20,380 nt of DNA. Source: a virus. Made by a program: the position numbers and the translations under genes. The stretch spans positions 1 to 20,380 of the IMG/VR virus record IMGVR_UViG_3300017752_002435. One strand, 5' to 3'. The notes under the pieces were generated by a model. That model was not told the origin of the DNA and searched no databases. It saw nothing but the letters and a program-made list of their open reading frames with translations. Position 1 is the first letter of the stretch. Each line of letters begins with the position of its first letter. This document shows positions 103 to 10,037 of this stretch, in pieces.

Positions 103-849
103 ATGATTGAAGTAGATGCCCTGGTTATTCAGGGCCCAACAACCTACTGTAAAGAGGTTACAGAATACTATAAAGACTACAAACAAATATGGTCAACGTG
201 GAATTCTGAACCAAAAGAGAATCTGGATTATCTTCAGAGTTTATCAAATGTTTCTTTGGTAACTGATGATCTTCCAGTTCTTTCTATTAAGGAGAAGTCT
301 GGATCAGGTCATGGTCCATGGTGTCTTGAGAGAGCACTGTATCAATGGACTTCTACACTTAATGGATTTGATTTTGCTAATCAGAAGGGGTATACTTTTT
401 GCCCTAAGATAAGATCAGATTTTTTAATCGATCTTGATGCTGCTTTGGTGAAGTGTGATCCAGATGCATTCAATTCTCTTGGATGGCATAAAGGTAGTGT
501 TGGGTATCTAGTTGATTATTTCTATCTTGCAAAAACTAAAGATATTATGTCTATGCTTGAATGTTGTATATCTATGAGAATTCCTGCTCATGCTGAGAAT
601 ATAATGACTTATGCTTGGATTGAATGGTCTCAAAGAAGAAATTTAAAATATTGTTTAGATGAATATGTATATACTTACTCTTTAAAACATAAGTATACTA
701 CTGAATTATTCATGGGAGAAGTTGCAAAAGGTATTTGGATCGTTGATCACAATCAACATCATGATTCTAAAAACCATCTACATACTTTTACCAAGGATAA
801 TTTACCTGATAAGTATCCTTTAATTTATGGATGGGGACCTGGAGTATGA
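103..849 (+). CDS. WavE-like glycosyltransferase / LPS synthesis protein
   Basis: A 248-residue soluble protein with no signal peptide or membrane helix. The N-terminal strand with VIQGPTTYC (about residues 8-16), followed later by a Lys-x-Arg-Ser-Asp segment (KIRSDFLID, about residues 102-110), resembles the layout of WavE-type lipopolysaccharide synthesis proteins, in which a K-x-R-[ST]-D motif follows a beta strand. By inference it transfers a sugar to a surface glycan; donor and acceptor are unknown. It is first in a chain of overlapping glycan genes and shares ATGA with the next gene. The family call rests on short motifs only, and another nucleotide-sugar transferase family is possible. 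Confidence 0.5.
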   Translation: MIEVDALVIQGPTTYCKEVTEYYKDYKQIWSTWNSEPKENLDYLQSLSNVSLVTDDLPVLSIKEKSGSGHGPWCLERALYQWTSTLNGFDFANQKGYTFCPKIRSDFLIDLDAALVKCDPDAFNSLGWHKGSVGYLVDYFYLAKTKDIMSMLECCISMRIPAHAENIMTYAWIEWSQRRNLKYCLDEYVYTYSLKHKYTTELFMGEVAKGIWIVDHNQHHDSKNHLHTFTKDNLPDKYPLIYGWGPGV

Positions 850-1556
850 GAGACTACAAAAAAGAAATTGAATTTTTCCATAACAAGTTAGTCAATAATG
901 AGAAGTTTGCTCTCGGTAAGTTTGCTGATGGAGAGTGGGGAGCAATAAAAGGAACACAGTTTCTTCCTGCTAATGGTGAATGGGCTGCTAATGGAGATCA
1001 TCCTCTTTATGAAGTTGCTAGGAAAGAACTGGAAGATTCACTTTGTTTTCAGCATCCAGATTACTATGTTGCTATTTGTCCTTGTTATCAGGACACAATC
1101 ACATTTTCTCAACAACCAGAAAGTAATATCACATATGCAAATATCTTTGTAAATTCAAACTATGAGTTCTATAAAGAGAAATATATTGAAGTATATAATG
1201 AGTATGATATACATCTCGTAACCCATAAAGATACGAATCTGGATAACCTCCCATTCAAGGTGGAAAAATTCTATCCAATCGAGTATAATGCATGGGTACT
1301 CAACCGAGATCTGCCTGATCAGATCTTGAATGAGAATCCTGAGGGTAAATTATTCCTCTTTGCTGCAGGGGCTTTCGCTAACATCCTTGCACATAAACTC
1401 TGGGATAAGAACAAGAACAACACCTATCTTGATGTTGGTTCTACTCTCAATCCTTGGACTCAAATTGAACGCTTGAAGCGTGAATACTACATGGGCAATA
1501 AAGAACTTGAGTGTCTTGTATGCCCCTGCCCAAACTACTCTCCTTCTAAACTATGA
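846..1556 (+). CDS. GT-D-type glycosyltransferase-like protein
   Basis: The start at 846 gives a 236-residue protein and an ATGA overlap with the preceding stop. An in-frame ATG at 831 would add five residues but overlap 19 nt. Near the N-terminus, KFADGEWGAI (about 25-34) contains a D-x-E triplet, like the metal/nucleotide-sugar motif of GT-D-fold (DUF1792-type) glycosyltransferases. Near the C-terminus, FLFAAGAFANILAHKLW followed by DVGS is the kind of nucleotide-binding turn seen in that fold. There is no signal peptide. The cassette context supports a sugar-transfer role, but donor and acceptor cannot be read. The family assignment is an inference from motifs. Confidence 0.5.
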   Translation: MRDYKKEIEFFHNKLVNNEKFALGKFADGEWGAIKGTQFLPANGEWAANGDHPLYEVARKELEDSLCFQHPDYYVAICPCYQDTITFSQQPESNITYANIFVNSNYEFYKEKYIEVYNEYDIHLVTHKDTNLDNLPFKVEKFYPIEYNAWVLNRDLPDQILNENPEGKLFLFAAGAFANILAHKLWDKNKNNTYLDVGSTLNPWTQIERLKREYYMGNKELECLVCPCPNYSPSKL

Positions 1557-2347
1557 TCTCGTTTAACAGTCTTGGAAATCTGGGACGGCTTGCTAATCAG
1601 ATGTTCCAGTATGCATCTATCAAGGGTATTGCAAACAATTGTGGACTAGAGTTTTCTCTCCCTCCAGTTTCTTCATTTGGAACTAGAGATCCTATGGTAA
1701 AAAACTCTGATACAAATTTGTATGAGTGCTTTAAATTGCCTGAGTTTAAGCAAGGATTGTACGCACATCCTCAGTACGTTGAACAAAGTTTTGCATTCAT
1801 CCCAGAACTCTTTGATAGTTGTCCAGATAATATTGATCTAGTTGGGTATTTTCAAACAGAAAAATACTTCAAACATATCGAAGATGAGATTCGTAAGGAC
1901 TTTACTTTTATTGATGAAGTATCAGAACCTTGTAAGGATATTTGGAAGTCTATCTTTGGTGGTGCCGAAGTTCTTTCCCTTCATGTTCGTCGAGGTGATT
2001 ATGTTGGTCACACTGCACATCCTGTTCAAAGCATGGAGTATTATAAAAAGGCACTTTCAAACTTTTTCCCAGATCAACCAGTGTTGGTTTGCTCTGATGA
2101 TCCTGATTGGTGTAGGGGAGAGTTTAAAGAAGATCGTTTTATGATCTCTGATGGTGGTGATACTCGTGTCGATCTATGTCTGATGACTATGTGTAAATAC
2201 CATATCATCGCCAACAGTTCTTACAGTTGGTGGGGAGCATGGCTTGCTAATAGTAAAAAAGTTATTGCTCCTGGAAAGTGGTTCACTGGAGAGCTCTCTC
2301 ACAAAGACACCACTGATATCTATTGTCCTGGTTGGATCCTTATTTAA
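1553..2347 (+). CDS. GT11 family alpha-1,2-fucosyltransferase
   Basis: A 264-residue protein with the GT11 hallmarks. The N-terminus has GNLGRLANQMFQYA (about 8-21), like the family's start. The GDP-fucose site HVRRGDY lies at 144-150. The C-terminal block runs from DLCLMTMCKYHIIANSS to SYSWWGAWL (about 207-231). The length is close to bacterial GT11 enzymes (about 270-300). Known members move L-fucose from GDP-Fuc in alpha-1,2 linkage onto a terminal galactose, making an H-antigen-like end. No GDP-fucose synthesis genes are visible here, so the donor would come from the host or from genes outside the window. The start overlaps the upstream stop (ATGA). Confidence 0.93.
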   Translation: MISFNSLGNLGRLANQMFQYASIKGIANNCGLEFSLPPVSSFGTRDPMVKNSDTNLYECFKLPEFKQGLYAHPQYVEQSFAFIPELFDSCPDNIDLVGYFQTEKYFKHIEDEIRKDFTFIDEVSEPCKDIWKSIFGGAEVLSLHVRRGDYVGHTAHPVQSMEYYKKALSNFFPDQPVLVCSDDPDWCRGEFKEDRFMISDGGDTRVDLCLMTMCKYHIIANSSYSWWGAWLANSKKVIAPGKWFTGELSHKDTTDIYCPGWILI

Positions 2348-3066
2348 TGTCTGAACTAACTGTTATACTTCCTTGTGCGGGAGAGGGAACTAGACTTTCT
2401 CTCCCATATCCAAAAGAAATTCACTCTATTGAAAAAAACAAATCCCTGATTGATTATAGTTTTGATTTATTTTCAAACTATGGTCGCAGGGATGTTGAGT
2501 TTGTAATTACTCTCAATGAAAATAAAACCGAACTGGTTAAGTATCTGAGTCGATATAAGTCCAGATACAATATCTCATTCACATTCTTTAATCCTGCCGA
2601 AACTGAGTACACAGGATCGATCAAGAGTGCTAGTCATTTATTTGGTGAAAAGAATCTTGTTCTTCTCCCAGATACTTTTATGAAGTTGAAATCCTCTCAA
2701 GATATTGTGAACCTTGTTCATGATAGTTTGAATGAAACTGGATTCACTTTTTTCTATAAGTATGAAAATGATCCTGATATGCTGAAGACTAAAGGTGCGC
2801 TGTGTATTACTGATGATCTTGTTCAGGAGTATGAAGACAAACCTCAAGAAGAACATTCTAGGTTTAATTCTTTCTGGACTGCATTTGCATTTAGAAAAAG
2901 AGTATTTACTCAATGCATTGAGTTTATGGAAAAATCAACATTGAGGCATCGTCTTCTTACAGGTGAAATTGAGTGTACTCCAATATATAAGTCGAAGGCA
3001 ATTGAAGTAGATGAGTATGTTGACTTGGGAACGTGGTCTCAAATATATCAATTCACAAATGGATAA
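2347..3066 (+). CDS. Sugar-1-phosphate nucleotidyltransferase (NTP_transferase-like)
   Basis: The start at 2347 shares one base with the upstream stop (TAATG) and gives 239 residues. The open frame extends 8 codons further upstream without a better start. The N-terminus ILPCAGEGTRLSLPYPKE (about 7-24) is the nucleotide-binding G-x-G-T-R-L ... P-K signature of nucleotidyltransferases that make NDP-sugars, with a shortened spacing. LVLLPDT (about 105-111) provides a candidate metal-binding Asp. The Arg-Phe/Trp-rich middle and VDLGTW near the end also fit the fold. It likely activates a sugar phosphate for the neighbouring transferases; base and sugar specificity are unknown. It overlaps the HAD phosphatase gene by 8 nt, suggesting linked use. 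Confidence 0.8.
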   Translation: MSELTVILPCAGEGTRLSLPYPKEIHSIEKNKSLIDYSFDLFSNYGRRDVEFVITLNENKTELVKYLSRYKSRYNISFTFFNPAETEYTGSIKSASHLFGEKNLVLLPDTFMKLKSSQDIVNLVHDSLNETGFTFFYKYENDPDMLKTKGALCITDDLVQEYEDKPQEEHSRFNSFWTAFAFRKRVFTQCIEFMEKSTLRHRLLTGEIECTPIYKSKAIEVDEYVDLGTWSQIYQFTNG

Positions 3067-3643
3067 AAAAATAATCGTTGATTGTGATGGAGTTCTTCTA
3101 GATTGGGCATATGCATTCGATGTATGGATGGCTGAAAATGGGTTTGGAAGAATTGAAAATACTCAAAAGTATTATTCACAATCCAAGAGGTATGGAATAC
3201 CTGAGACTCAAGCAATTCGACAGATTAAAAAGTTCAATGATTCTGGGTGTGTAGGATTTATTCCTGCATATAAGGATTCGGTGGAGTATGTAAATAGATT
3301 ATATAATCTTGGATGGAGATTTGAGGTTATTAGTTCCCTGAATAAAGATAAGTATGCTCAAAAATTAAGACAGAATAATCTTGTACACCTCTTTGGAAAT
3401 GTATTTGATTTTATTGACTGTAGTTTGGATCATACTTGCACTAAAGAAGATTATTTGCTGGATAGATATTCAGGAAAAGAACACTTTTGGATCGAGGATT
3501 CAGTAAATAATGCTATTGCTGGTAGCAATATTGGACTGACTAGTGTTATAATGGACCATGAGTATAACCAAGAATGGAATGGTCCTCGGGTAAAGAATTG
3601 GAAAGACGTTTATCAAATGATACCAAATGACTCCACATATTGA
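3059..3643 (+). CDS. HAD-superfamily hydrolase (phosphatase)
   Basis: The start at 3059 gives 194 residues and an 8-nt overlap with the nucleotidyltransferase. The N-terminal VDCDGVLLDW carries the catalytic D8-x-D10 of HAD motif I. VISSLN (about 90-95) supplies the motif II serine. WIEDSVNNA (about 144-152) is the acidic motif IV. The segment between motifs I and II forms a small helical cap. HAD enzymes of this size are sugar-phosphate or nucleotide phosphatases. Sitting between a nucleotidyltransferase and a purine nucleoside phosphorylase, it could belong to NDP-sugar synthesis or to nucleotide salvage. The superfamily is clear and the substrate is not. Confidence 0.8.
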   Translation: MDKKIIVDCDGVLLDWAYAFDVWMAENGFGRIENTQKYYSQSKRYGIPETQAIRQIKKFNDSGCVGFIPAYKDSVEYVNRLYNLGWRFEVISSLNKDKYAQKLRQNNLVHLFGNVFDFIDCSLDHTCTKEDYLLDRYSGKEHFWIEDSVNNAIAGSNIGLTSVIMDHEYNQEWNGPRVKNWKDVYQMIPNDSTY

Positions 3644-4313
3644 AGCACATGAAGGGGCATACCATGAGACGGTTCTCATGCCTGGAGATCCACTTAGAGC
3701 TAAGTGGATTGCAGAAGAATTTCTAGATGATTATGAAGTTGTGAATACCGTTCGCAACTGTTTAGGATATAGTGGAACCTATAAAGGGAAGGAAGTATCT
3801 GTTCAGGCAAGTGGTATGGGACAAGCAAGTCTTGGAATCTATGCACACGAACTCTATAATGTTTATAATGTTAAAAGAATTATTAGAGTTGGTAGTTGTG
3901 GAGGCATTGCTCCTAATTTAAAAATTGGAGATATTATTGTAGCAATGTCTGCTGCTACTGATAGTGCTATGACTGAAAACCTTATCCCTGGTTTCAAGTT
4001 ATCTCCCTGCTGCGATTATAATCTTCTTAAAAACTATATGTCTCAGAATCCAATCGCTAAAGTTGGGCAGATGGTTTCTAATGATTACTTCTATCAACCA
4101 AACTCTGAATGGCATCATCCATTTGTGAAGATGGGAGTTCTTGCTGTGGATATGGAAACTCATGTTCTCTATAGTCTTGCAATGCGTTTCGCGGCACAGG
4201 CTTTGTCTGTGAACACTGTCTCTGATCACCTAATTAGTGGAGAAGAAATGACTTCTATAGAAAGAGAACAGGGATTAGTTTATATGGTTAAAAGTGTTTT
4301 GGAGAGTTTATGA
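3627..4313 (+). CDS. deoD: Purine nucleoside phosphorylase, DeoD type
   Basis: A 228-residue protein that aligns by eye along its whole length with the E. coli hexameric enzyme (239 aa). It begins MTPHI, with the His shared across subunits. It has the phosphate-site motif LMPGDPLRAKWIAE, an Arg in VNTVRN matching Arg43, IIRVGSCG (phosphate/ribose site), the ribose-binding motif AVDMETHVLY and catalytic TVSDHL. E. coli has VEMEA where this protein has VDMET, an Asp for Glu change beside the Met-Glu pair. The enzyme splits purine (deoxy)nucleosides with phosphate into base and (deoxy)ribose-1-phosphate, which would recycle host nucleosides during infection. It overlaps the HAD gene by 17 nt inside the glycan cassette, an unusual place for a salvage gene. 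Confidence 0.93.
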   Translation: MTPHIEAHEGAYHETVLMPGDPLRAKWIAEEFLDDYEVVNTVRNCLGYSGTYKGKEVSVQASGMGQASLGIYAHELYNVYNVKRIIRVGSCGGIAPNLKIGDIIVAMSAATDSAMTENLIPGFKLSPCCDYNLLKNYMSQNPIAKVGQMVSNDYFYQPNSEWHHPFVKMGVLAVDMETHVLYSLAMRFAAQALSVNTVSDHLISGEEMTSIEREQGLVYMVKSVLESL

Positions 4314-5191
4314 TTAATCTTTTTTATGAAGAGTCTTATTGGATGGGATCTAATAGGATGACTGGACCTCGTGCAGTAATTGGGAATCTTTTAAGAAGTC
4401 TAGAAGACCAGAATATTCCATATGCAAGGAATGAAGAAAAGTATGAAAATAATTTTATTATTCAATATGATAGAAATGGGTATATCAAGCACTCAACTTT
4501 AACTCTTGAAAATTGTGTTATTGGTCCTCAGATTTGGTTCTTTGATGATCATGTAAAAGAACTTCAACAAAATCCTGATAGATATAAATCTATTATTGTC
4601 CCATCGCAATGGACAAAGGATCTTGCTATAAACAAATTTGGATTTGAAAGAGTGGAAACATGGCCTGTAGGTATTCCACTTCCAGAAATTAAAAGGGATT
4701 CTGAAGTTCATCAGTTTGACTGTTTGATATATTCTAAACGTAGGACAGTACAAGAATTTGATGCAGTAGTGGATCTACTTCAGAAAAAGAATATGTCTTT
4801 CAGGACACTTGTATATGGAAACTATAATCAAGAAGAACTTGCTCTCATGTGTAGTCAGGCAAAATTCTGTTTTTTACTAAATGGAACAGAGAGTCAGGGT
4901 ATCGCTGTTCAGGAGATTATGTCCCACAACGTTCCTATTTTTTCTTGGGATGTGTCTGAGTGGAATGATATGGGACCTAAGTATTCAATACCTGCAACCT
5001 CTATTCCATATTGGTCTGATGAATGTGGTGAAGTGTTTAGGTCTACTGATCCTTCTCTTGATCATATTTTTATGGAGGAGACATTTGATAAGTTCTGTAG
5101 TAAAATAGATACTTATAATCCTCGTAAATATGTTGAAGAAAATCTTTCTTATGAACAATCTGTAAAACGACTGCTGGAGATATTATGCTGA
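4310..5191 (+). CDS. GT-B fold glycosyltransferase (group 1-like)
   Basis: A 293-residue soluble protein in two halves. The N-terminal half includes a glycine-poor GSNRMTGPRAVIGNLLRSLE segment resembling the acceptor-side start of group 1 transferases, and an IIVPSQWTKDLAINKFGF stretch typical of GT4-type proteins (V-P-S-x-W/F). The C-terminal half includes LIYSKRR and LVYGNY strands and LLNGTESQGIAVQEIMSH (about 194-211), the E-x7-E-like nucleotide-sugar binding region. Known relatives transfer sugars onto cell-surface glycans. Substrates are unknown. It overlaps deoD by ATGA and the next methyltransferase by 7 nt. Confidence 0.7.
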   Translation: MINLFYEESYWMGSNRMTGPRAVIGNLLRSLEDQNIPYARNEEKYENNFIIQYDRNGYIKHSTLTLENCVIGPQIWFFDDHVKELQQNPDRYKSIIVPSQWTKDLAINKFGFERVETWPVGIPLPEIKRDSEVHQFDCLIYSKRRTVQEFDAVVDLLQKKNMSFRTLVYGNYNQEELALMCSQAKFCFLLNGTESQGIAVQEIMSHNVPIFSWDVSEWNDMGPKYSIPATSIPYWSDECGEVFRSTDPSLDHIFMEETFDKFCSKIDTYNPRKYVEENLSYEQSVKRLLEILC

Positions 5192-5811
5192 TTACATTAG
5201 ATGGTCTAGTCAAAAAATATAACATGAAGATTGTAGGAGCTCTTCATGTTGGTGCTCATTATGGTGAAGAAGTAAAAGATTATGTTGATCATGGAATCAA
5301 AAATCTTTGCTTCTTTGAACCTCTTTCAAATACTTTACAAATCTTGGAAGATACTCTTGCGGAATATGCTGATAGTGCAAACATTCAGATCTATCCATAT
5401 GCTCTTGGAAATCATGATTGTGAAGTTGAGATGTTTGTAAGTGATCATGGTGGAATGTGTAGTTCCATCTTGAGACCTAAGATCGTTCTTGAACAGTATC
5501 CTGGAATTAAATTTCCTAGAAAGGAGAAAGTCAAGATGGTTCGTCTTGATGACTGTGAGGTAGATCCTGCAGACTATAACTTCATGAACATCGATGTTCA
5601 GGGGTATGAACTTGAGGTTTTGAAGGGTGCTGAAAACTTGTTAAATAACATTGATTATGTTTATACTGAAATCAATGTTGCTGAGGTCTATGCAAATGCT
5701 CCTCATGTCGATGAGCTAGATAAATTTTTATCAACATACGGATTCTCCAGAGTAGAGACTGATCTATCGGGAACAACTTGGGGAGACGCTTTCTATATTA
5801 AGGAGAAATGA
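5185..5811 (+). CDS. FkbM family methyltransferase (first copy)
   Basis: A 208-residue Rossmann methyltransferase. ALHVGAHYGEEV (about 19-30) is the SAM-binding glycine motif, CFFEPLSNTL is the acidic motif after strand 2, and FMNIDVQGYELEVLKGAENL is the D-x-Q/E-G-x-E signature typical of FkbM proteins. FkbM enzymes O-methylate sugars or polyketide hydroxyls using SAM. Beside glycosyltransferases, the likely substrate is a hydroxyl of a surface sugar (an inference). The gene overlaps the GT-B gene by 7 nt and is followed 1 nt later by a second, quite different FkbM gene. Confidence 0.88.
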   Translation: MLITLDGLVKKYNMKIVGALHVGAHYGEEVKDYVDHGIKNLCFFEPLSNTLQILEDTLAEYADSANIQIYPYALGNHDCEVEMFVSDHGGMCSSILRPKIVLEQYPGIKFPRKEKVKMVRLDDCEVDPADYNFMNIDVQGYELEVLKGAENLLNNIDYVYTEINVAEVYANAPHVDELDKFLSTYGFSRVETDLSGTTWGDAFYIKEK

Positions 5812-5812
5812 A

Positions 5813-6547
5813 ATGTCTAATTACAACGTATCAAAAACATGCCAGGTAAATGATCTGGATACTATTTTAACCAGGTATTTTGGTTATCCTTCTGAAGGAT
5901 TCTTTGTTGAGGTTGGCGCTTTTGATGGAGAATCGTTTTCAAATACCTCTTGTCTTGCTGATCATGGTTGGGGTGGTATCTATGTCGAACCCGTAGAGGA
6001 ACATTATGATGCTTGTTTGCGTCGTCATGAAAAGAATGAGGAGATTGCAGTTGTTCAGTGTGCTGTAGGTTCTGAAGATAAGACTATTGATCTTTATGTT
6101 GGTGGTCCGTTGACTACTTCTGACCCCGAACAAGTCAAACGATACTCTGAGATTGATTGGGCTCAGCACATTCCTTTCTCAAAGAGAGAGAAGATTGAGC
6201 AAGTAACTCTTGATAGTCTTCTTGATTACTTTGATATTGAACCTGGTCAGATTGATATCTTGACGGTTGATGTTGAAGGAAGAGAAGCAGATGTTTTTGA
6301 AGGATTTACTCTTAATGAGTGGAATCCTAAGATGATGATTGTGGAGTTAGAGGATGAGCATGAATCATTCCAAAAATATCCGGATCATGTTGCAGTTCAT
6401 AAGGCACTTAGAGATAAAATTCTTGCTTCAGGGTATGTAGAAATTTACAAAGATCATATCAATACTATTTTTGTTCAGCAGCACTACCACGAGGATGTCC
6501 AAAAAGCTTGGGAGTCTCAAGAGAAAGTAGATCTACAAACATCATGA
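5813..6547 (+). CDS. FkbM family methyltransferase (second copy)
   Basis: A 244-residue protein with the motif order of its neighbour but a divergent sequence. FFVEVGAFDGESFSNTS (about 30-46) is the SAM motif, GIYVEPVEEHYDACL follows strand 2, and ILTVDVEGREADVFEGF is the FkbM signature. It ends in an acidic, Gln-rich tail absent from the first copy. The start is fixed by a strong AGGAGAA ribosome binding site at 5801-5807, five bases before the ATG. It probably methylates a different sugar or position on the same glycan. The stop overlaps the GT6 start (ATGA). Confidence 0.88.
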   Translation: MSNYNVSKTCQVNDLDTILTRYFGYPSEGFFVEVGAFDGESFSNTSCLADHGWGGIYVEPVEEHYDACLRRHEKNEEIAVVQCAVGSEDKTIDLYVGGPLTTSDPEQVKRYSEIDWAQHIPFSKREKIEQVTLDSLLDYFDIEPGQIDILTVDVEGREADVFEGFTLNEWNPKMMIVELEDEHESFQKYPDHVAVHKALRDKILASGYVEIYKDHINTIFVQQHYHEDVQKAWESQEKVDLQTS

Positions 6548-7239
6548 AAATATGTATCTTAACTATCGCTACAAATAAGTATATTCATTTTGTTCAGGAA
6601 CTCTACGATAATATCGAAGAGTTTTTTCTCCCTGGACATGATAAAACTTGCCTCTTGTTCACTGATCATGAATTAGAAGAAGTGTCCGACAATGTTAGAG
6701 TTCATACGATTGATCATGAACCATGGCCAATGCCGACATTGAAAAGATACAACTACTTCATGAAAGAAAAGGATTTTATTCTTGAGCATGATTATTGTTT
6801 TTACTTTGATGTAGACATGGCGATCGACAATATCGTTGGTGATGAGATTCTTGGTGATCTTGTAGCAACAAATCATTTCTATCAGTCTCGTATGGATGAT
6901 GCATCCAAGTCTTTTGATAGAAATTCTGAGTCTCTCGCTTATGTTTCTTATGGCGAAAAGGTAAGGTCTTATTATGCAGGGGGATTTAACGGTGGAAAGA
7001 CTGAAGTCTTTATGACTATGGCTAAGACAATTGCTCATCGTGTTAATAGAGATCTTGAGAATGGAACCATTGCAACCTGGCATGATGAGTCTCATATGAA
7101 TCGATATATGATCGACCATCCACCAACTCTACCTTTATCGTATGAGTATTGTTATCCTGAACCAGAGTTAGGTAGACATCCTAACGATAATCCAAAAATT
7201 ATTGCATTGTTGAAAAATCATGGCGAACTTAGATCTTAG
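6544..7239 (+). CDS. GT6 family glycosyltransferase (ABO / alpha-1,3-galactosyltransferase family)
   Basis: The start at 6544 gives 231 residues and an ATGA overlap. A 36-nt in-frame extension upstream has no better start. It shows the GT6 blocks in order: an N-terminal strand followed by GHDKTCLLFTDHE, HEPWPMPTLKRYNYF, the D-x-D motif YFDVDM (D89, D91), SYYAGGFNGGKTEVF, and ATWHDESHMNRYMIDHPPT with LSYEYCYP after it. Animal GT6 enzymes (blood group A/B transferases, alpha-Gal synthase) transfer GalNAc or Gal from UDP in alpha-1,3 linkage to galactose, and the HDESH and GGF-GG blocks are theirs. It lacks the animal stem and membrane anchor. Most bacterial GT6 enzymes are reported to carry N-x-N instead of D-x-D, so the retained D-V-D is notable. 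Confidence 0.9.
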   Translation: MKICILTIATNKYIHFVQELYDNIEEFFLPGHDKTCLLFTDHELEEVSDNVRVHTIDHEPWPMPTLKRYNYFMKEKDFILEHDYCFYFDVDMAIDNIVGDEILGDLVATNHFYQSRMDDASKSFDRNSESLAYVSYGEKVRSYYAGGFNGGKTEVFMTMAKTIAHRVNRDLENGTIATWHDESHMNRYMIDHPPTLPLSYEYCYPEPELGRHPNDNPKIIALLKNHGELRS

Positions 7240-7861
7240 AGAAATCCCAGCAATTTATATCAATTTAGATTCTGATACCGAAAGAAATGAGAGAATGCAA
7301 TCCATGCTCACGGAGTTTGGATTTAAGAATATCATTCGCTTATCTGCTACTAGAATGGATGATAGGTTAGCTGCGTGTTCTCAGTCGCATTACAATGCAC
7401 TGAAAGAGGTAGATTCTCCCTTTATTGTATTCGAGGATGATTGTTTAATTAAGAACTTGAATCCTATAATAAATATCCCCGATGATTCGGATGCAGTTTA
7501 TCTTGGTATCTCTTCATGGGGTAGACAAAATGGTCACTCTGGACCTTGTGTATTCTATGAAGAAGTGTTAGACTCTCCTGGTATACTGCGTGTGTACAAT
7601 ATGCTAGGAGCACATGCAATTTTATATCTGTCCAAAGAATATGTGAGTTTATGCTCTAAGATTTCTAATTGGTATTGTAGAGAAGCATATCATCAAGATA
7701 TTGGATTTGCTGAAGTACAAAAGTATTACAATGTATATGCTTTTGATGATCCAATTTTTTATCAAACTAGTTCAAATGGAACTGATCAGAAGTTAAGTTC
7801 TTATCCTAGTATTGAATTTGTTCAGTACGACAAACGTTTTTGGAAACCCGTGGGAGTGTAA
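7220..7861 (+). CDS. GT25 family glycosyltransferase (LOS/LPS type), first copy
   Basis: A 213-residue protein. AIYINLDSDTERNERMQSM (about 11-29) is the GT25 opening (Y-x-I-N-L-x-x-x-x-x-R). AACSQSHYNALKE (about 51-63) matches the family's G/A-C-x-x-S-H block, and FIVFEDDCLI gives the E-D-D metal motif (72-74). GT25 enzymes include beta-1,4-galactosyltransferases of lipooligosaccharide. The start overlaps the end of the GT6 gene by 20 nt and no strong ribosome binding site is visible, suggesting translational coupling. The exact sugar is unknown. Confidence 0.82.
   Translation: MANLDLREIPAIYINLDSDTERNERMQSMLTEFGFKNIIRLSATRMDDRLAACSQSHYNALKEVDSPFIVFEDDCLIKNLNPIINIPDDSDAVYLGISSWGRQNGHSGPCVFYEEVLDSPGILRVYNMLGAHAILYLSKEYVSLCSKISNWYCREAYHQDIGFAEVQKYYNVYAFDDPIFYQTSSNGTDQKLSSYPSIEFVQYDKRFWKPVGV
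7465..7475 (+). promoter_or_regulatory. Possible internal promoter (TATAAT fused to AATAAATA)
   Basis: Inside the first GT25 gene, TATAAT (7465-7470) merges with the T4-late motif AATAAATA (7468-7475), and TTGTTT lies 18 nt upstream of the TATAAT. The same composite occurs at 18174-18184 in front of the tail-fibre gene. It lies about 390 nt before the epimerase gene and could serve the last two genes of the cassette. An AT-rich coding stretch could produce it by chance. Confidence 0.25.
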
Positions 7862-7862
7862 A

Positions 7863-8780
7863 ATGCCGCATAGTTTAGTTACTGGAGGGGCAGGATTTAT
7901 TGGATCAAATCTTGTAGATACCCTTTTAGAAAAAGGACATAGTGTAACTTGTGTCGATAATGAGCATTCTGATGCTCATGATGAATTTTATTGGAACCCC
8001 AAAGCATGGAATGTTAAGGGAGATATCCGAAACTATAATCTCATGAGAGAACTCATGGATGGGGTTGATTATGTTTTTCATTTGGCTGCAGAGGCACGTA
8101 TTCAACCTGCTATCATAAATCCAATTGAAGCAGTAAGTATTAATTGTGTTGGTACTACTACTATTCTTCAAACTGCAAGAGAAGCAGGTGTTAAAAGAGT
8201 AATGTATTCTTCCACGTCTTCTGGATATGGTATGAATACTCCTCCTAATGTTGAGACACAGATAGATGATTGTTTGAATCCTTATTCAGTTTCAAAGGTT
8301 ACTGGAGAAAAGTTGTGTAAGATGTATACAGACTTGTATGGTCTTCCTACAGTTGCTTTTCGGTACTTCAATGTATATGGTGAAAGACAACCTCTAAGGG
8401 GTCAGTATGCCCCTGTAATAGGCATCTTCTTACGCCAGAAAGCAGCAGGAGAAAAACTAACTATTGTTGGTGATGGAGAGCAGCGTAGAGACTTTACGCA
8501 TGTTAGTGATGTCGTTCAGGCAAACTTCCTTGCCGCAACTACTGAGGTAGACTCTGAGGCATTTGGTGAGGTTTACAATATTGGTACAGGAGTTAATTAT
8601 TCTGTTAATGAAATTGCAAAAATTATTGATTGTCCCACCACTAATATTGCTCCTCGTCCTGGTGAAGCTAGGATAAGTCTTGCTAACAATCAAAAGATGC
8701 GTAATACTTTTGGTTGGGCTCCTATTGTTAAACTAGAAGAATGGATTGGAACATATGGACAAAAACAAATCTGCGTTTAA
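7863..8780 (+). CDS. NAD-dependent sugar epimerase/dehydratase (GalE-like SDR)
   Basis: The start at 7863 has a GGGAG ribosome binding site six bases upstream and gives 305 residues, normal for extended short-chain dehydrogenases. SLVTGGAGFIGSNLVDTLL holds the NAD-binding G-G-x-G-F-I-G (8-14), VFHLAAEARIQPAI is the typical strand 4 motif, YSSTSSGYG gives the catalytic Ser/Thr region and YSVSK the Tyr141/Lys145 pair. RYFNVYGERQ and the RRDFTHVSDVV block are typical of UDP-sugar 4-epimerases. It likely interconverts UDP-Glc/UDP-Gal or UDP-GlcNAc/UDP-GalNAc, the donors used by GT6 and GT25 neighbours. A dehydratase or other epimerase role is not excluded. Confidence 0.88.
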   Translation: MPHSLVTGGAGFIGSNLVDTLLEKGHSVTCVDNEHSDAHDEFYWNPKAWNVKGDIRNYNLMRELMDGVDYVFHLAAEARIQPAIINPIEAVSINCVGTTTILQTAREAGVKRVMYSSTSSGYGMNTPPNVETQIDDCLNPYSVSKVTGEKLCKMYTDLYGLPTVAFRYFNVYGERQPLRGQYAPVIGIFLRQKAAGEKLTIVGDGEQRRDFTHVSDVVQANFLAATTEVDSEAFGEVYNIGTGVNYSVNEIAKIIDCPTTNIAPRPGEARISLANNQKMRNTFGWAPIVKLEEWIGTYGQKQICV

Positions 8781-9552
8781 GTTAGACGGTTTCGGTCCTG
8801 TATACTGTATTAATCTTGATGGTCAACCAGAGAGATGGGAATACATGGAGAAACAGTTTAACTATTGGGAAGTTAAAAACTATGAACGCATCTCTGCATA
8901 TGATGGTAGAGATGATGACCTGAGTGATATAATCTACGGAAGATATCCTGAAATGGTATCTTCTGGAGAGATCGGATGTATTACATCTCACTTGAAAGCT
9001 ATTAAGCATTGGTATGAAACATCCGATTCTCCTTACGCGGTCATCATGGAAGATGACTGTAAATTAGATCTTGTGAAGTATTGGAACTTTACATGGAGAG
9101 ACTTCTATAGTAAAGTCCCTTATGATTGGGACGTTATTCAACTCGCAATCATTTCTACTGGTGATATTCATGTCGGTCTTCACAAAAGATTTGTAAATGA
9201 TTTCTCCACTGCCTGTTACATTATTAATAGGCATCATGCAGAGAAGATTCTTAGACTTCACTGTAAGAAGGGTAAGTATAAATTAGACAATGGAGTCAAA
9301 CCACGTCCAGTTGCCGATGATATGATTTACAATTCAGGAAATACATTCAGTATTCCTATTCTTTTGTATCATATTCCACTTGGTTCTTCTATTCATCCAG
9401 ATCATATTGACGCATTTCATAAGAATAGTCATGATGGTATCTGGAACTTCTGGAGTCAAAATGGTGCGAGCCTTGACTTAACTGCTCTGATGAACTACAA
9501 TCCTTATGTTGGTCGGGTGTCCGAACCCACCCCACCAAAGCAGAGCTCCTAA
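8755..9552 (+). CDS. GT25 family glycosyltransferase, second copy
   Basis: The first ATG at 8755 gives 265 residues; an upstream TTG at 8746 would add three. GPVYCINLDGQPERWEYMEK (about 14-33) is the GT25 opening, GEIGCITSHLKAIKHW (about 71-86) the central G-x-x-x-S-H block, and YAVIMEDDCKLD carries E99-D100-D101. HADD-like residues occur later as PVADDMIY. Compared with the first GT25 copy it is about 50 residues longer, with a fuller C-terminal region. It overlaps the epimerase by 26 nt and is the last gene of the glycan cassette. Likely activity: a galactosyl or related transfer onto LPS-like glycan. Confidence 0.85.
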   Translation: MDKNKSAFKLDGFGPVYCINLDGQPERWEYMEKQFNYWEVKNYERISAYDGRDDDLSDIIYGRYPEMVSSGEIGCITSHLKAIKHWYETSDSPYAVIMEDDCKLDLVKYWNFTWRDFYSKVPYDWDVIQLAIISTGDIHVGLHKRFVNDFSTACYIINRHHAEKILRLHCKKGKYKLDNGVKPRPVADDMIYNSGNTFSIPILLYHIPLGSSIHPDHIDAFHKNSHDGIWNFWSQNGASLDLTALMNYNPYVGRVSEPTPPKQSS

Positions 9553-9665: not shown

Positions 9666-10037
9666 ATGATTAAATCTGTATTCGCAGCATCCGCTGCTCT
9701 TTTCGCTTCTGCTGGCGCTGCCCTTGCAGGTCCCTATGTTAATGTCGAAGCCAATGCTGGTTGGACCGGATCTGAGTATGGCGGAGCCGCCACAGATCTG
9801 CACGTAGGTTATGAAGGTGCTCTGGGTGAGTCCTCTTCGTACTACGTCCAAGGAGGCGCTACTGTGTTGACTCCTGACGGTGGCGACAGCGATACCGTTC
9901 CTTCTGGTAAAGCAGGTCTTGGACTCGCCGTAACTGACGCTCTGGGCGCATACGGTGAAGTCTCCTTCGTTGGTAGTGGTGACGAGGACATCGATCGCGG
10001 CTATGGTGCTAAACTGGGTGTGAAGTACAGCTTCTGA
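9666..10037 (+). CDS. Secreted outer-membrane beta-barrel-like protein
   Basis: A 123-residue protein with a clear signal peptide: Lys3, a hydrophobic Ala-rich core and ALA at 19-21, so cleavage is expected after residue 21. The mature part (about 102 aa) alternates polar and hydrophobic residues in short strands rich in Gly, Ser and Tyr (YVNVEANAGW, DLHVGYEGAL, SSYYVQGGATV, AYGEVSFVG). It ends GAKLGVKYSF with a C-terminal Phe, the usual outer-membrane barrel recognition end. It probably inserts in the host outer membrane, or is a carried virion protein. It has its own leader and terminator. Codons are visibly GC-richer than the AT-rich glycan genes, suggesting separate origin or strong expression. 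Confidence 0.75.
   Translation: MIKSVFAASAALFASAGAALAGPYVNVEANAGWTGSEYGGAATDLHVGYEGALGESSSYYVQGGATVLTPDGGDSDTVPSGKAGLGLAVTDALGAYGEVSFVGSGDEDIDRGYGAKLGVKYSF

Follow-up and report, generated by a model that had tools for sequence, protein, structure and literature searches.

The window analysed here, a viral contig of 20,380 bases (IMG/VR record IMGVR_UViG_3300017752_002435), appears to hold most of a cyanophage glycan cassette, and we propose that this cassette builds a branched, ABO blood-group-like terminus on a surface glycan, with L-galactose possibly serving as the branch sugar. We give this reading a probability of about one half, and from the genes we infer the linkages, the order of the steps, the sugars, the acceptor, the place and the purpose. 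In the proposed scheme, a GT25-like enzyme (7220-7861) would add a beta-galactose, to which a transferase of glycosyltransferase family 11 (GT11, 1553-2347) would attach L-fucose or L-galactose in alpha-1,2 linkage from a GDP-sugar donor. A metal-dependent family 6 enzyme (GT6, 6544-7239) would then add an alpha-1,3-linked N-acetylgalactosamine (GalNAc) or, less probably, galactose (Gal), with UDP-Gal and UDP-GalNAc supplied by a GalE-like epimerase (7863-8780). The L-sugar donor would come from either of two interchangeable modules, gmd with fcl for GDP-L-fucose or a GDP-mannose 3,5-epimerase (GME) for GDP-L-galactose. Two FkbM methyltransferases would modify the product further, and such a foreign terminus would be consistent with remodelling of the infected-cell surface or decoration of the virion. 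The acceptor could lie on host lipopolysaccharide or on the virion, and conceivable purposes include the exclusion of superinfecting phages and evasion of recognition by phages or grazers.

The GT11 and GT6 transferases

The original prediction for this DNA had named a GT11 fucosyltransferase, a GT6 enzyme and a GalE-like epimerase, and all three genes are borne out; both transferases clear the Pfam cut-offs easily, and chance is no concern for the family assignments. The GT11 gene begins with an ATG and encodes 264 residues, which match PF01531 at 5e-25 (88.8 bits against a cut-off of 23.9) and also phrog_2644 at 1.7e-106. The protein keeps two motifs that are invariant or almost so among its relatives, HxRRxDY at residues 144-150 (H144-V-R-R-G-D149-Y) and NSSYSWWGAWL at 221-231. 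A sequence search of the PDB gave no match for it, and relatives emerged by fold comparison instead: the AlphaFold model, with a predicted local distance difference test score (pLDDT) of 94, has the GT-B fold of GDP-fucose-using transferases and matches NodZ with a Z of 14.8 (3.3 Å over 220), POFUT1 with 14.7, Arabidopsis FUT1 (AtFUT1) with 14.3 and FUT8 with 13.5, and unrelated GT-B folds score at most 11.2. We predict that the enzyme transfers L-fucose or L-galactose alpha-1,2 to galactose. Linkage varies within the family, HhFT2 being an alpha-1,3 member (PMC4202792), and GDP-L-galactose is accepted by fucosyltransferases, including an alpha-1,2 enzyme (PMC8787198). Elsewhere in the surveyed loci (L and G numbers are our handles for loci and genomes), a divergent GT11 clade with about 30% identity to the query GT11s lies right after GME (L011:1092, L013:3530, L015:1135 and L023:1220); these cassettes hold a second GT11 too, and the clade is a candidate dedicated L-galactosyltransferase.

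The GT6 gene starts with an ATG at 6544 and encodes 231 residues, matching PF03414 at 5.7e-32 (111 bits, cut-off 25) and phrog_3317 at 1.4e-72; against NCBIfam Gltr_6 it scores 187 bits, under the cut-off of 250. Its best solved relatives are BoGT6a of Bacteroides ovatus (5e-33) and the human ABO transferases (2.5e-24). Alignment with BoGT6a and the human transferase GTA identifies the key residues as D89-V-D91, His111, Ser123, YYAGGFNGG (143-151), W179-H-D-E182-S, Lys218 and Lys224, and the enzyme has the full catalytic set of an ABO synthase, namely the DXD motif, the acceptor His, WHDE and the C-terminal Lys. Among nine phage GT6 proteins, the DXD, the acceptor His111, WHDES and the C-terminal K224 are invariant. 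The residues held in common with BoGT6a and GTA fit a Fuc-alpha1,2-Gal acceptor; alpha-3GT, which works without a need for fucose, shares most of them.

The donor loop (the 266-268 loop) reads A-G-G, with a Gly where GTA has Gly268. The loop is identical to the one in BoGT6a, a GalNAc-specific enzyme that makes the A antigen on 2'-fucosyllactose (PMC3961637), so GalNAc is a better guess for the donor than Gal. In the GT6 tree the window enzyme falls in the DXD clade with human ABO and proteins of Dependentiae and Chlamydiae (97, starred), apart from the NXN clade, and the phage GT6 is predicted to be metal-dependent. The two phage subfamilies, I (that of the window) and II, form separate clades, which suggests that GT6 joined GT11-bearing cassettes at least twice. 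DXD-type GT6 is frequent in Dependentiae and Chlamydiae genomes (L351-L374 and similar), contrary to the older picture of near-all-NXN bacterial GT6. Two cassettes (L030 and L040) contain two GT6 genes, one per phage subfamily, and on a 181-kb contig (L071) a subfamily-I gene stands alone, the flanking 10 kb in each direction holding no other cassette gene among those searched for.

For the underlying galactose, the AlphaFold model of the GT25-like protein (pLDDT 88) finds its best matches in the human collagen galactosyltransferase COLGALT1 (Z 14.8) and in bacterial beta-1,4-galactosyltransferases (Z 12). It is plausible from this model that the enzyme makes the beta-galactose that GT11 and GT6 would decorate, although likeness of fold is no proof of which sugar is moved, and its gene is the one most tightly linked to GT6 subfamily I. 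The epimerase, with its ATG at 7863, matches PF01370 at 2.5e-59; in the PDB it comes closest to a UDP-glucose 4-epimerase (4zrm, 7e-49) and then to the WbpP/WbgU sugar 4-epimerases. Its 142 bits against NCBIfam galE fall far under the cut-off of 262, and hence we call it GalE-like only.

Linkage of GT11 and GT6 across phages and bacteria

Our phage collection contains 71 records with GT6 and 102 with GT11. Dereplication at 90% left 65 GT6 genes as the linkage set; here GT11 accompanies GT6 at 42 of 44 evaluable subfamily-I loci and at 16 of 17 in subfamily II, and the co-occurrence in related phages that the original prediction had looked for is thus found, although it proves uninformative when taken alone, as set out below. 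Gene order says more for other GT6 lineages. GT11 adjoins GT6 in 9 of 14 subfamily-II loci (Bellamy, DSL-LC02, B23, S-CAM9 and others) against 1.8 expected, a level reached in 0/2000 shuffles, and in 23 of the 37 bacterial loci, from many phyla, that have both genes, against 6.4 expected (0/5000 shuffles). Because the two genes are directly adjacent in these lineages, sequential use of GT11 and then GT6 is strongly supported there. For the two families as a whole we regard it as likely, and for the window cassette as plausible. For subfamily I itself, the window-type GT11 clade occurs with GT6-I in 29 of 38 loci, as opposed to 8 of 39 for other GT11 (p=1e-6, loci chosen blind to GT6), and in a few loci (L027, L030) GT11 abuts GT6-I.

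Several results speak against the proposed terminus. Among cassettes selected through GT25, GT11 occurs in 15/16 of those that have GT6 and in 43/47 of those that do not (Fisher p=1). Nearly every such cassette has GT11, and we therefore rejected co-presence as a test for a pathway. Descent of entire cassettes from common ancestors can inflate the association between GT11 clade and GT6-I. In subfamily I, moreover, GT11 adjoins GT6 in only 2 of 41 loci, with 5.3 expected, so the ABO-like order put forward by the original prediction is supported in other lineages but is not favoured by adjacency in the window's own. As GT11 is not preferentially adjacent and its co-presence is uninformative, the acceptor of GT6-I might be something other than the GT11 product.

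One such arrangement would have the two enzymes act on separate glycans or positions, with GT6-I paired with the GT25-like enzyme and adding alpha-Gal or alpha-GalNAc to an unfucosylated residue, in the manner of alpha-3GT or Forssman synthase. The GT25-like gene does stand next to GT6 in 27 of 41 subfamily-I loci (4.9 expected), far oftener than GT11, and 17 of 26 bacterial loci with a DXD-type GT6 have no GT11 nearby. We nevertheless judge this arrangement unlikely, since GT11 is missing from only 2 of the 44 evaluable GT6-I loci, its clade tracks GT6-I and occasionally abuts it, and the genes are adjacent in subfamily II and in bacteria.

A more deflationary explanation is an ordinary hypervariable lipopolysaccharide (LPS) or capsule cassette in which transferases are shuffled independently, GT11 and GT6 standing together since both are common. 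The abundance of GT11 in GT6-less cassettes fits it, as does the wide variation of gene content around GT6. Adjacency far above random, seen both in subfamily II and across many bacterial phyla, together with the association of GT11 and GT6 clades, makes us regard it as very improbable. Loci of the cyanophage outer-membrane protein (OMP) were also tried as a control and dropped as being of little use, given that 69 of 80 had neither gene and mostly belonged to another cassette type.

Two donor modules and the branch sugar

The original prediction took the GT11 sugar to be fucose. This is in keeping with many related cassettes, in which gmd and fcl, the genes of GDP-fucose synthesis, lie just before GT11 and in L030, L339, L342 and L343 form touching gmd-fcl-GT11-GT6 arrays; in the Prochlorococcus phage P-SSM2, PSSM2_257 scores above the gmd cut-off and PSSM2_258 matches solved GDP-fucose synthases at 8e-101 but falls slightly short of the NCBIfam threshold. 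It is not in keeping with the nearest kin of the window, which carry GME and neither gmd nor fcl. An epimerase-GT11-GT6 arrangement of touching or overlapping genes is found in Bellamy, S-PRM1, S-CAM9, S-8S53 and SynMITS9220M01, and the Bellamy epimerase is a GME homologue (AtGME 2c59 at 2.3e-82, next family at 6.5e-19). Aligned to AtGME, it keeps SACMYPE, YGWEK and GGREKAPAA, within which lie a Cys, a Tyr-xxx-Lys and a Lys that we take to be the catalytic residues; the same motifs occur in the kin locus L167 (5983-7080). The product of GME is GDP-L-galactose.

Sorted by donor module, the GT6 cassettes comprise 25 with gmd/fcl alone, 15 with GME alone, 3 that have the two together and 14 that lack them (p=0.0014). 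Mapping the donor label onto the GT11 tree takes 5 changes, as against 28 when labels are shuffled. GT11 clades sort by donor module, and the modules seldom coincide. An independent-pairs comparison of GT6 with gmd/fcl on the same tree yielded few informative pairs. GME is present in all four of the nearest kin whose sequence reaches far enough upstream (L003/L167, L005, L007 and L169). None of them has gmd, which was sought and not found in the window, a 20-kb fragment, or in kin fragments of up to 42 kb; the 42 kb of L167 contain a GME with the Cys/Tyr/Lys motifs and no gmd. Because its nearest kin have GME and no gmd, the branch sugar of the window may be L-galactose rather than fucose.

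This assignment has its own weak sides. The window begins past the donor module, which is read from kin, and in L167 four genes (a GT2, a methyltransferase and two of unknown kind) separate the GME from GT11, so that another user of the GME product is possible. The exclusivity of the modules and the sorting of clades may partly mirror shared cassette ancestry. On the fucose side, neither the phage proteins (462 bits) nor those of hosts reach the 500 bits that NCBIfam sets as its fcl cut-off.

The terminus could also be built in the ABO-like order with ordinary L-fucose, the host supplying GDP-fucose and the GME of the kin serving another transferase. For the host side we used 121 genomes of the picocyanobacterial family, identified indirectly through a reference genome whose psbA is 93% identical to that of P-SSM2, and 73 of them have a GDP-fucose-synthase-like (fcl) gene. 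Further, 20 of 23 GT6-I cassettes with gmd or fcl have no GME, many with both gmd and fcl beside GT11, and P-SSM2, the nearest isolate-type cassette, has both genes. Set against this are the nearest kin, four of four with GME and none with gmd, and the sorting of GT11 clades by donor module, and we consider the L-fucose account a possible one that we would not bet on. In its fullest form, our proposal is that cyanophages make an ABO-like epitope in an L-fucose (gmd+fcl) and an L-galactose (GME) version around a conserved GT11+GT6 core, the window holding the L-galactose version, GalNAc-alpha1,3-(L-Gal-alpha1,2)-Gal, which is not known from host or animals; so much detail taken together can be offered only tentatively, and it may well be wrong in one part or another.

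Among the same host genomes, GT11 occurs in 11, GT6 in 1 and GME in 1. Hosts would thus often be able to supply GDP-fucose and would rarely have the enzymes for the terminus, and because they almost never have GT11, GT6 or GME, the host surface would not naturally bear the epitope. The lone host-family GT6 (L436, genome G305) and GME (G215:C1:264795-265817, 77% identical to a phage protein) are possible phage DNA in the assemblies.

Cassette layout and phage setting

The pair of transferases that the original prediction had bounded at 1553-7239 is only part of a single plus-strand cassette, 103-9552, whose 13 open reading frames overlap or almost touch. Its genes and the flanking gene are as follows.

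103-849, + strand: protein without known family, first cassette gene in the window; no Pfam or PHROG match; kept in L003, L005, L006 and L007 at 54-90% identity
831-1556, + strand: protein without known family; 4-base overlap with the GT11 start; no Pfam or PHROG match; 92-95% identity in nearest kin
1553-2347, + strand: GT11 transferase, predicted alpha-1,2-L-fucosyl- or L-galactosyltransferase (PF01531 5e-25, motifs, fold)
2347-3066, + strand: nucleotidyltransferase (PF00483 8e-7)
3011-3643, + strand: HAD/5'-nucleotidase-like hydrolase (NT5C 1.3e-4, under the Pfam cut-off; phrog_420 3e-30)
3627-4313, + strand: purine/uridine phosphorylase-family protein (PF01048 3.3e-28)
4310-5191, + strand: glycosyltransferase, GT4-like, a weak assignment (PF00534 0.0025; phrog_2170 1.5e-4)
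5185-5811, + strand: FkbM-type methyltransferase (PF05050 6e-15)
5813-6547, + strand: FkbM-type methyltransferase (PF05050 5.9e-22)
6544-7239, + strand: GT6 transferase, subfamily I, predicted alpha-1,3-GalNAc (or Gal) transferase (PF03414 5.7e-32, motifs)
7220-7861, + strand: GT25-like transferase (GT25b, phrog_24091), predicted beta-galactosyltransferase; 20-base overlap with GT6 (linkage, fold)
7863-8780, + strand: GalE-like nucleotide-sugar 4-epimerase, putative source of UDP-Gal/UDP-GalNAc (PF01370 2.5e-59; PDB 4zrm 7e-49; WbpP 3.5e-44)
8749-9552, + strand: GT25 transferase, last gene of the cassette (PF01755 3e-12; phrog_2835 3.3e-124)
9666-10037, + strand: cyanophage outer-membrane-protein-like beta barrel, cassette flank (PF24653 Phage_OMP 6.7e-50)

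Downstream of the cassette lie this OMP gene (Pfam Phage_OMP) and genes for a chlorophyll-binding (hli-like) protein, plastocyanin and purC. Because of these genes and of the synteny with P-SSM2, with which the window has the order GT11...GT6-GT25b-epimerase-GT25 in common, we place the window in a T4-like cyanophage (Kyanoviridae), a cyanomyovirus setting.

The trio of nucleotidyltransferase, HAD/5'-nucleotidase-like and purine/uridine phosphorylase genes (2347-4313) inside the glycan cassette also occurs in L052, L059 and L007, and a nucleoside phosphorylase is an odd neighbour for glycosyltransferases. The 831-1556 protein keeps its high identity in kin although their other cassette genes diverge more.

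Significance and comparison with known systems

We found no literature that treats cyanophage GT11 and GT6 as an ABO-like pathway, which is weak evidence of novelty, as subscription papers lay outside the search. As far as the literature searched goes, the following is new: the linkage statistics, which come with a negative control; the association between GT11 and GT6 clades; the interchangeability of two donor modules; and the almost complete lack of the terminal enzymes among hosts. Were the proposal true, phage infection in the sea would produce a blood-group-type branched terminus in abundance, through enzymes absent from the hosts; infected picocyanobacteria or virions would bear an epitope that sets them apart; and the long-noted, unexplained LPS gene clusters of cyanomyoviruses would gain a concrete reading. 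The phages would also offer natural GT11 enzymes perhaps specific for GDP-L-galactose and a GT6 of the metal-dependent clade from outside animals, both useful for tracing the evolution of ABO-type synthesis and for glycan synthesis.

The original prediction saw in the pairing a new biological setting for the epitope, but the pairing is not peculiar to this phage: P-SSM2 and Bellamy also carry it, the P-SSM2 annotation already names GT11 and GT6, and GT6 in two cyanophages was reported in 2014 (PMC3961637). The P-SSM2 cassette (PSSM2_257-271: gmd, fcl, GT11, two genes, GT6, GT25b, epimerase, GT25) has the same order as the window, with GT6 61% and GT11 55% identical. It differs in having gmd and fcl, where the kin of the window have GME, and between its GT11 and GT6 the window has the additional nucleotidyltransferase-HAD-phosphorylase and GT4 genes. 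For Synechococcus phage S-SCSM1, genes for gmd, GDP-fucose synthase, GDP-mannose 3,5-epimerase and an alpha-1,2-fucosyltransferase have been published (PMC9602691); unlike the window, the available part of that account describes no GT6 and proposes no blood-group-like pathway.

Among cellular systems, the O-antigen of Escherichia coli O86 pairs the same two families in one pathway, the GT11 WbwK and the GT6 WbnI making the H and then the blood group B structure (PMC4202792). That system is a cellular O-antigen whose WbnI transfers Gal, whereas ours is a phage cassette, known here from genes, in which the AGG loop of GT6 suggests GalNAc and the GT11 donor may be GDP-L-galactose. BoGT6a, the closest solved relative (PDB 4ayj/4cjb; PMC3961637), shares with the phage GT6 the donor loop YYAGG, the acceptor His and WHDES, but has NAN and is metal-independent, whereas the phage enzyme has DVD and is predicted to depend on metal. 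The human transferases GTA and GTB, acting with FUT1 or FUT2, resemble the phage pair in the GT11-then-GT6 pairing of families, in the DVD motif and in the acceptor residues; their donor loop carries L/G or M/A where the phage GT6 has A/G, and the phage proteins, at 231 and 264 residues, consist of catalytic domains only.

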